From the NCBI RefSeq assembly GCF_014524565.1, contig NZ_CP060139.1, positions 2,363,501-2,427,500 of the forward strand: 64,000 bases of DNA, in the 5' to 3' direction. Made by a program: the position numbers and the translations under genes. Position 1 is the stretch's first letter. Every line of letters starts with the position of its first letter. The DNA comes from Croceimicrobium hydrocarbonivorans. Its GTDB lineage: Bacteria > Bacteroidota > Bacteroidia > Flavobacteriales > Schleiferiaceae. This document shows positions 35,620-60,688 of this stretch, piece by piece. The notes beneath the pieces are model-generated. The model worked only from the letters and a program-made list of their open reading frames with translations, did not search any database and was not told where the DNA came from.

Positions 35620-36435
35620 CTAGATTTCGATGAAATTAGATTGTAAGATCTGGTAATTATCAGCATCATAAATAAAGGCAATTACCTCACAATTGGCTTT
35701 CACAGCATCAGAGGGTAAAGTAATGCTTTCTGTAAAGCTGGCACTACCGCTGGATAGGTCAATGGTTTTTCCATAAGTGCCACTAAAAGATCCTCGGAAA
35801 ACGTGATCATGCACGTAATTGGGATTTACAGATTTGTCACCCAAAGTTTGAGCCGATACAATATCATTTTCAGTTAGGTATAAGCAAACCTTGATATTAT
35901 CTGGTAAAGTACCCGTTGCGCTTACATTCCCGGATACTGTAAGTTCCATAGTTCCGGCATTATAGCTGTCTTCCACCAGATTGATTTCAGCCACCGGCTG
36001 ACGTTCCAATTCAGTGGCAACTACTCCGGCCCAATCACCTTCGCCCTTAATCATTTTGTTTTCATCATAATCGAGGCGATTCACAAAGCCAACCGGTACA
36101 CCAAATAGTTGGAAGAAGTTAAATAACTCCGTTCCCTCCGGGGTGTTAAAAGCCTTGGGATGCTCGGCATCAGTAGTGGCTAAGTTACCGGCATGAATAC
36201 CAATCAAAATTAAATTCTCCTTGCCATAAATGGCTTGAAGGTTTTTTGCCTTTTGATTGGCGGCAGGGCAGTTATTACATTTTACTCCGGTAAATTCTTC
36301 AAGGAAAACACGGTGGCCGGTTCCCTGATATCCTTGTGAGCCACCTTCAATAAGTAGGTACTCGTCTTCCGGAATTTCATCACAGGCTTGCAAGCCCAGT
36401 AATAAAGCTGCGAATGCTAATATTTTAATCTTCAT
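35620..36435 (-). CDS. Omp28-related outer-membrane lipoprotein
   Basis: The 271-residue protein has a lipobox ending at Cys18 (LGLQAC). The Omp28 signature FLEEFTGVKCNNCPAANQ has Cys53 and Cys56 in a CxxC position of a thioredoxin-like fold, and NLILIGIHAG follows. The C-terminal 120 residues form a beta domain with NYVHDHVFRGSFSGTYG. Omp28 proteins are found in Bacteroidota outer membranes and Porphyromonas, with roles not firmly set. It lies 5 bases downstream of the broken DUF6029 gene on the same strand, a known Bacteroidota pairing. Confidence 0.9.
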   Translation of the reverse strand: MKIKILAFAALLLGLQACDEIPEDEYLLIEGGSQGYQGTGHRVFLEEFTGVKCNNCPAANQKAKNLQAIYGKENLILIGIHAGNLATTDAEHPKAFNTPEGTELFNFFQLFGVPVGFVNRLDYDENKMIKGEGDWAGVVATELERQPVAEINLVEDSYNAGTMELTVSGNVSATGTLPDNIKVCLYLTENDIVSAQTLGDKSVNPNYVHDHVFRGSFSGTYGKTIDLSSGSASFTESITLPSDAVKANCEVIAFIYDADNYQILQSNFIEI

Positions 36436-36440
36436 ATTCC

Positions 36441-36791
36441 TTAGAAGTTTGAAGTGAGTAATAAACTAAAGCCATTAGAGGCAGGTACAACTCTACAAAT
36501 ACCACCAACACAGAATACACCTTGTTGTTGGCGACCATAGTTCACCTGCACCTTGGTAGTTCCACGGGTATATCCAAAAGAAACTAATGGATAATGAATT
36601 TGCAAATCCGGATCAGGATTACCGTAGTTGTAAGCATCTTGAACCGCCACAAACCACTGAGGAGCAATGGAGTATTCTAATAATAACAAAGCCCAGGATC
36701 CTCGATCTTGCTCGGTATGCATAAATTGAGCTTCGGTGCGAAGAGAGTGACGTGGTTTAATTTTCCAAAGCAATTCGGCTACAGCGGGCAA
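36441..36791 (-). pseudogene. C-terminal remnant of a DUF6029-type outer-membrane protein
   Basis: Only the last 116 residues remain. The segment KIKPRHSLRTEAQFMHTEQD, then GSWALLLLEYSIAPQWFVAVQDAYNYGN, and a C-terminal strand ending in Phe, resemble the end of DUF6029 beta-barrel proteins, which run to about 500 residues and pair with Omp28. The frame stays open only to about 36812 on the minus strand and holds no signal peptide. The missing part should lie to the right, but there the plus-strand Omp28-like gene begins. It is therefore a 5'-truncated gene at a rearrangement or assembly junction. Confidence 0.7.
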
Positions 36792-36816
36792 TACAGTACT
36801 GGGAGAGTCCTCTTAT

Positions 36817-38418
36817 GTGAATGTGGCTTTGGAAGGAGATATTGATATCACTAGCAATATTCTTACCGTTGATGTGGAAATGTATTTCACCGCTAACGCC
36901 CCTTCCGATGTGAATTTGAATGTGGCCCTTTTGCAAGATAATGTGAGCGGTCCTCAAACTGGGGCCTCCAGTAATCCTGGCCAGGTAAACCCTGATGGTA
37001 CTTACAACCATCAACATATGTTGCGTACTTTATTAACCGGACAATGGGGTGAGGTAATTACCACTACTACATCCGGTACAACCGTTACTCGTCAGTATAC
37101 CTATACTATACCCGCTTCTATTAATGGGGTGCCGGTTTCAATTGGCGATCTGGAAATTGTAGCTTTTGTTGCCGAAGGTCAAACCGATATTATTACCGGG
37201 GCTAAAGGACCAATGAATTATACCGCTCCTGGAGGTGCAGTGGTGGCTGACTTGAGTTCAAGCGCATCTGCAGTAAACAATTCGGATTATTGTGATCCTA
37301 ATTTTACCCCTGAAATGACGGTAATGAATAATGGAAATCAAGCCGCCAGCAACTTTGATGTTTCCTATTCTATCAATGGTGGAACTGCCGTGAGCCAGAA
37401 TGTAAGTGCGTCCTTAGCTGGAGGCGCATCAACTACTATTAGCTTCCCAACTATTAGTCTGAGTACCGGGCTTAACCTTATAAGCTATGAGGTTTCAACT
37501 GCTAACAATAGCAATCTTTATGATTTAAGTTCAGCGAATAATATCGCGGTAAGCGATCCGGTGATTGTTGTGTCACCAAGTCCTTTTGGGACTTTTTGGC
37601 ATGAGGGCTTTGAGTCTTATTCACTGGGTGATGATGACTTTAGTAATTCCTATACTTTAAATATGGATGGCTATAATTTTTATGTAGTTAACCAAAGCAT
37701 TGATCCTTCTGTAACTACCAATCTGGGTGCTTATGGAACGTCTAGTAACAGCTTATTGTTTGATTTCTTTAGCATCGCGAATGGCGGGAGCATGGCTGTA
37801 ATGTGGGAAAAACTAGATTTGAGTTCCACTACAAACAATAGCATCATTTTCGATCATGCCTATGCTCAGTATACCAGTGAAAATGATCGTTTGGAAATTA
37901 AAGTTTCTACGGATTGTGGTGCTACCTGGAATTCAGTTTTTAATAAAGCCGGATCTGCTTTAAGTACGCGTACTGCAACCACCAATTATTATATCCCTTC
38001 ATTTAATGATTGGACAACTGATACCATTGATATCTCTTCTTACGATGGAAGTGCAGAGTTAATGGTGCAGTTTATCGGAACCTCTAATTATGGTAACAAC
38101 CTATTTGTTGATAATATTCAATTCTACAACAACACTTATGTGGGATTGAATGAGAATAACTTAGTGGAAGCTTTCCAATTATATCCAAATCCTGCCCAAG
38201 ATCAATTCAATATTGATTTGAACTTAAGCTCAGATGCTAAAGTGGAAATTAAGGTTCTGGATATTACCGGTCGTGAACTATTGCAAGTGGCCAATAGTCA
38301 ATTAAGCAGCGGTGAAACCAAGCTTAATGTTTCTGTGGAGGCATTACCAGCAGGCACGTATTTTATCGAACTAAATGTGGACGGCACCAAGTATACTGAA
38401 AAGTTGATGGTGAATTAA
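36817..38418 (+). CDS. Omp28-like T9SS cargo protein, 5'-truncated
   Basis: The 533-residue frame has no signal peptide. It starts in the middle of an Omp28-like domain: SYVNVALEGDIDITSNILTV then LNVALLQDNVSGPQTG and NHQHMLRTLLTGQWGE correspond to its C-terminal half, and homologous-looking sequence continues in frame upstream to about 36787. The N-terminal thioredoxin-like half is missing. The rest has a CARDB-like domain (about residues 150-245), a jelly-roll-like domain (about 250-440), and a T9SS sorting domain from YPNPAQDQFNID. Without a signal peptide it could not reach T9SS, so it is probably non-functional as it stands. Confidence 0.75.
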   Translation: MNVALEGDIDITSNILTVDVEMYFTANAPSDVNLNVALLQDNVSGPQTGASSNPGQVNPDGTYNHQHMLRTLLTGQWGEVITTTTSGTTVTRQYTYTIPASINGVPVSIGDLEIVAFVAEGQTDIITGAKGPMNYTAPGGAVVADLSSSASAVNNSDYCDPNFTPEMTVMNNGNQAASNFDVSYSINGGTAVSQNVSASLAGGASTTISFPTISLSTGLNLISYEVSTANNSNLYDLSSANNIAVSDPVIVVSPSPFGTFWHEGFESYSLGDDDFSNSYTLNMDGYNFYVVNQSIDPSVTTNLGAYGTSSNSLLFDFFSIANGGSMAVMWEKLDLSSTTNNSIIFDHAYAQYTSENDRLEIKVSTDCGATWNSVFNKAGSALSTRTATTNYYIPSFNDWTTDTIDISSYDGSAELMVQFIGTSNYGNNLFVDNIQFYNNTYVGLNENNLVEAFQLYPNPAQDQFNIDLNLSSDAKVEIKVLDITGRELLQVANSQLSSGETKLNVSVEALPAGTYFIELNVDGTKYTEKLMVN

Positions 38419-38443
38419 GGATCAGACAAGATTCGACCAGACT

Positions 38444-38474
38444 AAGGAGGGCTATTTAGTCCTCCTTATTTTTT
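38444..38474 (+). terminator. Intrinsic terminator of the Omp28-like T9SS gene
   Basis: AAGGAGGGCTA/TAGTCCTCCTT forms an 11-base stem (one G-U pair, TT loop) followed by ATTTTTT, 26 bases after the stop codon. Confidence 0.85.
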
Positions 38475-38631
38475 GCCAATCAATTATAGAGGCACATGGC
38501 TTTATGATTGATTTGCAGGCCTTTTTTCGATAGGGAAAAAAAGAAGGAAAAAATTTCAGCTTTGATACTATAATCAAAATTGAGCCGTTGTACCGCCATC
38601 CTTCTACCCAAAGTGGAAGGATAGCTTTTTT
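38475..38631 (+). other. Intergenic segment ending in an orphan terminator; possible small RNA
   Basis: About 120 bases separate the terminator of the T9SS gene from a second terminator-like hairpin (stem ATCCTTCTAC/GTGGAAGGAT with one G-U pair, then AGC and six T, 38598-38631). No convincing coding frame on the plus strand explains this second terminator. The minus-strand frame in the area is short, with no family resemblance. A short non-coding transcript is possible. Confidence 0.35.
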
Positions 38632-38708
38632 ATTGGACGGGTGTATGAAAAGCGTATTTTTGGCGTTTTTCAGGAAAACCGACCTAAAACCACAGCTGTA
38701 CAACTCCT

Positions 38709-39287
38709 ATGTTGCATCATATCCGCGGGAAATTAATTGAGGTAAAACCTACTGAGGCAATCATTGATTGTCAGGGGCTTGGCTACCAGGTGAACATATC
38801 TTTGCATACCTATTCAGCCATCGCTCACCAGAAGGAACTCATGCTTTTCTTACATCCTATTTATAAAGAAGATTCTCAAACTCTTTATGGATTTTCAAGC
38901 AAGCAGGAACGCGATGTTTTTGTGCATCTAATTTCTGTAAGTGGAGTAGGAGGGAATACAGCTCGTACCATCCTTAGCAGTTTAAGTCCAATAGAAGTTA
39001 TTGCCGGTATAGGTAGAGAGGATGTAGCGCTCTTACAGTCTGTGAAAGGGATAGGAGCGAAAACCGCTCAGCGAGTAATTATCGACCTGAAAGATAAACT
39101 GGCACCTCTGGCCGATGAAGTAGAAGCCGTAGGAGCGAATCCAAGTATAAAAGCGGAGGCTATTGCTGCCCTGGAAGTGCTTGGATACCCTGCCCGCCAA
39201 TCTGAACGTGTATTAAGTAAACTCTTGCAGGACCCTGCAATTTCGAGTATTGAAGAACTCATTAAAGCTGCCCTGAAAAAACTTTGA
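38709..39287 (+). CDS. ruvA: Holliday junction branch-migration protein RuvA
   Basis: RuvA is the junction-binding partner of RuvB. The 192-residue protein has an N-terminal OB fold (residues 1-65, MLHHIRGKLIEV start), two helix-hairpin-helix motifs (SVSGVGGNTARTILSSL and SVKGIGAKTAQRVIIDLKDKL), and a C-terminal domain III that binds RuvB. The stop overlaps the sprA TTG start by 4 bases. Confidence 0.96.
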   Translation: MLHHIRGKLIEVKPTEAIIDCQGLGYQVNISLHTYSAIAHQKELMLFLHPIYKEDSQTLYGFSSKQERDVFVHLISVSGVGGNTARTILSSLSPIEVIAGIGREDVALLQSVKGIGAKTAQRVIIDLKDKLAPLADEVEAVGANPSIKAEAIAALEVLGYPARQSERVLSKLLQDPAISSIEELIKAALKKL

Positions 39288-42200
39288 GTTTACCTAAAAA
39301 ATATCTCAGTCTTTTGGGCCTTTCGGTCCTGTTTATCATCTATTCCTTCACCTACAGAAGGAATGTAGCCGCTGATATCCTTTATATAGAAAACGGTTGG
39401 GACGAAGAGTGGAATCGTCGCTTAGCTCTTGCCGATACCAATGATCCTGATAGTATATTACCTTATCCTTTTGGAGGGAACGAATCTGGAGGAGTTTACG
39501 GAAATCAGCCTGGTAACTTCAAAGAAGAAGTTGAATACGATAAGGAATCAGGGAACTACTTTGTATACCGTCGTTACGGTAGATTTAGTTCTGCTCCGCC
39601 TGTGGTAATGACCCCCAGCGAGTACCGGGCTTATGTGGCCAAACAGCAGGCCCAGGATTATTGGAACTCGCGCAGTAAAAGTCAGGAAGCCCAGGAGGCA
39701 GAAGGTCGTGACCCTGCTAGTTCTATTATTCCGCAGATTACGATCGACAACGAGAACTTTGCTCGAATTTTTGGTTCCAATACCATTGATATCCGCCCTC
39801 AAGGTTTTGCGGAACTCACCTTTGGTGGTCGCTTCCAAAAAATTGACAATCCTATTATTCCTGAACGAAATCGAAATGTATTTACCTTCAATTTCGATCA
39901 GCGCATTCAGATGAACGTAAATGGGAGCATCGGTGAAAAGCTAAAGCTGAACGTAAATTACGACACTGAAGCCACCTTTGCCTTCGAGAATCAGGTGAAA
40001 GTTGAATTCACGGGCTTGGAGGATGATATCATCAAGAAAATCGAATTAGGTAACGTTAACCTTCCTCTAAACTCTTCATTAATCACTGGGGCCCAAAGTT
40101 TATTCGGGGTTAAAGGTCAATTCCAGTTTGGTAAATTGATGTTAACCGGAGTATTCTCGGAGCAAAGAAGTCAAACTTCTTCCATCAATATTCAAGGCGG
40201 GGCAACTACTACCGAATTTGAAATTTGGGGCGATCAATACGAGGCCAACCGTCACTATTTCCTTGCGCATTATTTCCGGGATAACTACGAAAGTTTCCTG
40301 CAAAACTCTCCACTGATTACCTCTCCGGTTCAGATCACCAAAGTGGAAGTATGGGTTACCAATAACCGACAGAATACTCAGGATACGCGAAACATCGTGG
40401 CCATGCTCGATTTAGGTGAGCGTGAGTTTCGTGCTTATCGCGATCAAAGCAGACCAGGTCCGGTGATTTTCCCTGGTCAAAATGGGTCTCAGTTTCCCGA
40501 TAACTTGAGCAACCGATTAGATCCTTCTACCTTAAGTCAGGACTATCCTGGAGTGCGAGACATTTCTCAGGTAAATGCCGCTTTAACCGGTGCAGGCTTT
40601 AATGAGGCCACCGAATTTGTGGAATTGGCCAATGCCCGCAAACTGAATCCCAACGAATTTTACTTCCATCCCCAATTGGGTTATATCACCTTAAACTCTG
40701 CTTTGAACCAAGATGAGGTATTGGCGGTAGCCTTCCAATATACCGCTGGCGGCAGAACTTATCAGGTGGGTGAATTTAGTACGGATGGGGTTACGCCACC
40801 TAATAACCTGGTGGTGAAAATGTTGAAGAGCTTTATCCTCGATGTAAGAGCTCCCAACTGGGACCTGATGATGAAAAACGTTTATTCATTAAGCGCATTT
40901 CAAGTAGGTTCTGAAGATTTCCGTTTGCAAGTATTGTATCAGAATGATGAAACCGGAACACCGGTGCCCTTTTTACCTGAAAGTAGCCTGCGTTCTGATC
41001 TGCTCTTAAGAGTAATGGAACTGGATCGCCTGAACCAGAATAATGATGACCAGGCGGATGGTTTCTTCGACTTTATTCCTAATGTGACCATCTATCCTCA
41101 GAATGGTAGAATCTTCTTCCCGGTATTGGAACCCTTCGGTTCGAACCTGGAAAGAAAACTGGCCAATGATGAGGAAAAGGATAAATACGTATTCCAGGAG
41201 CTCTACGACTCTACCCGTTTTGTGGCGCAGAATGAAACTCGCTTAAATAAGTATTTGATCCGAGGACAGTTCAAGTCTTCATCTAGCAGCGAAATTCAAT
41301 TAAATGCCTTTAACATCCCTCCAGGATCCGTATCGGTAACCGCTGGAGGTACTCGATTGGTAGAAGGTCAGGATTACCGGGTTGACTACAACTTGGGCAG
41401 GGTAACCATTTTGAATGAAGGAATTCTGAATTCCGGGGTGCCCATCAAAGTGGACTTTGAGAATAATGCCCTCTTTAATTTTCAGACGAAAACCTTCATG
41501 GGCTTAAATGCCGAATATCGCTTTAATGAGAATTTCAATTTAGGGGGTACAGTTGTTCATTTGAATGAGCGACCCCTAACCCAAAAGGTGAATATTGGGG
41601 ATGAGCCTATCTCAAATACCATTATTGGCTTAAATGGAAATTACTCCAAGGATGCGCCCTATCTAACCCGAATGGTAGACGCGATTCCCTTTATTGACAC
41701 TAAAGAAAGTTCCAATTTATTGGTGAGTGCAGAGGTGGCGCAAATGATTCCAGGCAGTCCGCGCGGAATTAAAATTAACGGAGAGCAAACCACCTTCTTG
41801 GATGATTTCGAATCCAGTCAAACCACAATTGATATTCGTAATCCATCGGCTTGGAAATTGGCCTCTACCCCTGCCGGCCAGCCTGATGTTTTCCCCGAAG
41901 CTACTGTTAACAGCATTGCTTATGGTTTTAACCGAGCTCGCATAGCCTGGTATACCATCGACCCGCTTTTTCATAATGATGAGGCTCGTACTCCGGACAA
42001 TATTCGAAACGATAAAGATCTTCAATCTACCAATGACGTGCGGGAAGTACTGGTAGATGAGGTATTCCCAAATTTGGAATTGGATAACAGCCAGCCCAGA
42101 AATATTGCCACTCTGGATTTAGCCTATTATCCTCGTGAGCGAGGACCCTATAATTACGATGTGGAGCCCACCGCTTATTCGGCCGGTTTAAATGCAGATG

Positions 42201-60597: not shown

Positions 60598-60688
60598 AGG
60601 GTGAAGTTAGGGAAAAGACCAAGAATCAGTAATCGATTCCCCGACATTTAAAACAGTAGTGCTCCTATAAAAACATAATTCCGAACTT

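Follow-up and report, generated by a model that had tools for sequence, protein, structure and literature searches.

The window, by which we mean the whole 64 kb stretch of DNA analysed here (G000:C1:2363501-2427500, taken from a single-contig genome of 4,035,598 bases that is 99.97% complete), carries the 3' remnants of two genes that lie on opposite strands and meet at one point. On the minus strand, the ORF list, Pfam and the alignments with relatives place the remnant of a DUF6029 barrel gene at 36441..36791, whose 116 aa match the DUF6029 profile (PF19494) solely over its end, positions 425-538 of 538 (E 8.8e-45), so that the domain is not full length and the rest of it is gone. This family is without known function in Pfam. 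The stub corresponds to residues ~446-562 of the 562-aa G005 protein, with about 446 codons missing, and the orthologues in G001, G003, G004, G005 and G006 continue past the breakpoint with lengths of 561-598 codons (in G001, an intact gene of 562 codons at L028:6136-7824). When the full G001 protein was searched against the window's own genome (protein search, E 0.001), the stub was the sole match. Downstream of the remnant, a full-length Omp28-family lipoprotein-like gene (35620..36435, minus strand; ORF list, Pfam and relatives) has been severed from the front of its own gene row.

On the plus strand, Pfam and the alignment to intact relatives identify the 3' remnant of an Omp28-type T9SS cargo gene, here called Omp28-T9SS, at 36784..38418. 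Its ORF at 36817-38418 encodes 533 aa, and the same frame is open further upstream, giving 555 codons in all. The remnant corresponds to residues 131-677 of the 677-aa G006 protein, the first ~130 residues being missing, and orthologues of 676-677 codons are found in G006, G013 and G022. Both Omp28 (PF11551) and Por_Secre_tail (PF18962) score above their cut-offs in the remnant (63.6 vs 34.9 and 60.9 vs 27, respectively), and CARDB is matched as well. The Omp28 match starts at profile position 42 of 171, and the sequence ends in a complete Por_Secre_tail domain (positions 1-75 of 75, E 1.5e-16), which is the C-terminal sorting domain of T9SS cargo. Judged by the alignment, which begins at G006 residue 131, the frame has no N-terminal Sec signal peptide and lacks the part of Omp28 that bears this peptide and CxxC. 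A search of the N-terminal 151 residues of the G006 protein against the window's genome matched only the Omp28 lipoprotein gene (E 0.001). The earlier note had described the last ~116 residues of a DUF6029-like barrel on the minus strand, and an Omp28-like T9SS protein that begins mid-domain with no signal peptide, and the profile positions and the missing N-terminus bear out both descriptions. As far as their sequences tell, the two remnants, being without start regions or signal peptides, most likely do nothing now.

The remnants join at a deletion junction at 36784..36787 (no strand assigned), placed by comparing the window with its flanks in G001, a UBA7878 MAG of the same genus; this lies at the low end of the interval of 36,785-36,800 near which the two genes had been said to meet. 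In the base-by-base comparison, the left flank of G001 fits the window through 36787 and the right flank fits it from 36784, and the BLAST blocks end at 36787 on the left side and start at 36770 on the right, overlapping over 36770-36787. The GCGG at the junction is common to both G001 flanks and sits inside an imperfect 11-nt match at 36777-36787 (GGCTACAGCGG / GGCCACTGCGG, 9/11 identical). Between the flanks, 1,562 nt of G001 (L028:5916-7477) are absent from the window, and this stretch holds the front of the intact 562-codon DUF6029 gene together with more of the Omp28-T9SS gene. The window, compared with five stretches of G001 contig in blocks of at least 150 nt, is collinear with G001 over 64 kb except for two structural differences, the junction deletion being the larger. 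The second difference lies at window 60617-60679, where the window has 61 nt and G001 has 768 nt that carry a 232-codon ORF (L069:9356-10054).

We consider it highly probable that the junction is a real and fairly recent deletion, probably formed by illegitimate recombination at GCGG, and that both remnants are most likely non-functional pseudogenes. Such a deletion would have removed the 5' ~446 codons of DUF6029, whatever lay between the two genes, and the 5' ~130 codons of Omp28-T9SS. Counting against recombination at GCGG, a match of 4 nt is short, and it is judged on G001 and not on the true ancestor. Recombination between long repeats was rejected, as the window has no long repeat at the junction, and so was a mobile element, as no transposase was recognised among the ORFs listed for 30-45 kb.

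With reference to the gene row of the relatives, the order in G003, G005 and G006 is ruvB, queG, then on the opposite strand the Omp28 lipoprotein gene, DUF6029 and the TlpA-like gene, followed by further genes, ruvA and sprA. The same genes are found in G004, with one extra stretch before queG, and the row is the same in G022, which belongs to another genus. The contig-record scan gave six loci, of which one was the G001 record and the other five had 40-48% identity. It had been proposed that one deletion beheaded two divergent genes, and that related genomes should be compared at this locus. The comparison with G001 upholds a deletion that joins two 5'-truncated genes, and the relatives do carry both genes at greater length, but these are not immediate neighbours there: in all the genomes that hold both with the undeleted stretch between them (G004 and G006 of the genus, and G022 outside it), the TlpA-like gene intervenes. 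The points joined in the window are ~2.7 kb apart in G006, with only the TlpA-like gene between them, and ~5.5 kb apart in G004, with the TlpA-like gene and two genes with T9SS-like tails between them, so that the original loss may exceed the 1.56 kb counted against G001. As G003, G004 and G005 branch closer to G000 than G006 does in the tree, in which one node has a support of 65, the loss more likely began from a distance like that in G004. TlpA and T9S239 have close matches in G003-G006 and none in G000, G001 and G002; in G000 and G001, the top matches to the TlpA-like gene or T9S239 have only 29-33% identity. Depending on whether G001, G006 or G004 serves as the reference, the deletion would take one or other of these three lengths, in one or more steps. 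The loss at the locus may have come about in more than one step.

Among the seven genomes of the genus, only G006 has a full-length Omp28-T9SS; four have a damaged copy, and two have none at the locus. Three of the damaged copies carry deletions that differ from one another, and the fourth has a lesion at the signal peptide: in G000, DUF6029 codon ~446 is joined to Omp28 codon ~131; in G001, Omp28 codon ~74 is joined to the end of TlpA, of which ~8 codons remain; in G002, the last 312 codons only are left, shortly after queG (L030:4333-5349); and in G004, an in-frame stop is accompanied by an out-of-frame ATG at the signal peptide (L029:5931-6040), the next 641 codons being open. No Omp28-T9SS gene was found between T9S239 and ruvA in G003 and G005, and DUF6029 had no match in the 350-contig genome G002. 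Inspection by eye also found that the G002 remnant adjoins a terminator-like hairpin. Since G001, G002, G004 and G006 are multi-contig genomes, part of the damage seen in them could stem from misassembly. One might suppose that Omp28-T9SS, beside ruvA-sprA, is under selection for loss in the genus, for example because the exposed protein serves as a phage receptor, which we think unlikely; if true, it would mean four independent inactivations of the gene, in addition to two more genomes whose locus no longer has it.

Bacteroidota-type promoters have the consensus TTG/TAnnTTTG, and a pattern scan with it found a promoter-like site upstream of ruvA at 38633..38662 on the plus strand. The site is in the same place in 6/6 genus genomes scanned (the window, G001, G003, G004, G005 and G006), and in G022 the scan gave no match before ruvA. 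Outside the pattern scan, the G002 sequence before ruvA looks alike by eye. The pattern has nine occurrences in the whole window; within 36000-39300 the site before ruvA is the only match, and none was found before the Omp28 lipoprotein gene. Because the intact gene rows of the relatives are also without a promoter-like match, in their case before the TlpA-like gene, the absence before the Omp28 lipoprotein gene is not a sign of a lost promoter. A promoter of their own, kept by ruvA-sprA, would explain why three deletions stop short of ruvA.

Regarding the age of the lesion, dN/dS was computed along the G000-G001 path. The Omp28 remnant, with 38 nonsynonymous and 163 synonymous differences over 541 codons, has a value of 0.044, and the DUF6029 remnant, over 115 codons, one of 0.012. 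Six neighbouring genes (sprA being represented by its first 300 codons) have values of 0.002-0.039, and none of the eight stretches exceeds the Omp28 remnant. The very low values of both remnants suggest that constraint ended late and that the lesion is young. The synonymous distance between the window and G004 is saturated. Under neutral evolution of the Omp28 remnant from the split onwards, 0.35 substitutions per site would be expected to produce ~12 stops, and 0 were found; judged from the polarised changes, the neutral share does not exceed 10% for the G000 branch or 6% for the G001 branch. The missing stops and the small neutral share indicate that the lesions are young, or that the headless ORF is in use, and the fact that neither remnant ORF has yet been interrupted, over 116 codons in one and >530 in the other, counts against the pseudogene reading.

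The amino-acid changes of the Omp28 remnant, polarised by G004 and G002, number 13 on the G000 branch and 5 on the G001 branch (16 not polarised), against 8 and 15 in five controls, most of them polarised by G005 and G003 (Fisher p 0.028). The tree branches of G000 and G001 are 0.043 and 0.017 for the remnant, and 0.011 and 0.019 for RuvB+QueG+RuvA. On the G000 branch, the nonsynonymous changes of the remnant exceed those of the controls (p 0.001), and on the G001 branch the corresponding p is 0.18. The test of synonymous and nonsynonymous changes between the branches gave p 0.315 for Omp28 alone, and the control ruvA has an asymmetry opposite to that of the remnant (p 0.010). Asymmetry is also seen in the full-length Omp28 lipoprotein gene, which stands outside the control set (p 0.025). 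These data give a weak hint of relaxed constraint on the Omp28 remnant in the window lineage.

The deletion has to be weighed against an assembly artefact, in which the assembly lost a segment, or fused two separate places, and the locus on the real chromosome is longer. That the nearest relative, G001, is also without an intact 5' end of Omp28-T9SS could speak for an artefact, but the genome is almost complete in one contig, there is no long repeat at the junction, and the remnant shows some excess of amino-acid changes on the G000 branch, and we consider such an error quite improbable. Since the missing 5' parts have no other match in this single-contig genome, and the flanks are collinear with G001, a misjoin of two distant loci is disfavoured. 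A spurious deletion made by the assembler inside the locus is unlikely. Another course of events, which is a variant of the real deletion and compatible with it, would be a G001-type deletion from the TlpA end to Omp28 codon ~74 in the common ancestor, followed by the loss of 1.56 kb more in the window lineage. The want of a close TlpA-like or T9S239 match in both G000 and G001 agrees with this order, as does the 5' truncation of Omp28 in G001 itself. However, function lost before the split predicts near-neutral branches, whereas only the small shares given above could be neutral, and open frames so long would not survive if function had ended that early. Nested deletions would fit a headless ORF that continued to be used, or a first step that took only the intervening genes, and we hold them to be possible but doubtful.

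The open frame and the low dN/dS, as well as the damaged but open versions in G001, G002 and G004, would also agree with the headless Omp28-T9SS ORF being a functional shortened gene. T9SS cargo requires Sec export, yet the ORF keeps the C-terminal signal of T9SS with no signal peptide; moreover, the damage point is different in each genome, and the remnant has the highest dN/dS of the stretches compared. Outside the genus, 17 of the listed matches, some of which may be paralogues, span 470 query residues or more, and all 17 sit in longer open frames (651-699 codons, against 555 codons here). A gene that naturally starts at the junction is hence unsupported, and among these matches no homologue of this kind, which the earlier note had named as evidence against its own reading, was seen. 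Its judgement that a functional explanation is unlikely agrees with the missing signal peptide, the differing damage points and the longer frames outside the genus, and we regard a working short gene as very improbable.

In summary, the locus shows gene loss of an ordinary kind, a scar flanked by two young remnants and left by what we hold to be a real deletion. Both ORFs, the DUF6029 stub and the headless Omp28-T9SS, are to be annotated as remnants and not as genes. The locus offers a clean example of early-stage gene loss, and what deserves following up is that the lesions of Omp28-T9SS differ across the genus, as this makes it testable whether the loss of this envelope protein is selected or merely tolerated. 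In comparison with young bacterial pseudogenes (e.g. Kuo and Ochman 2010, PMC2916853), the remnants are alike in being recently inactivated with the frame mostly open. What differs is that here two opposite-strand genes are beheaded at one junction, and that relatives carry other lesions in one of them.
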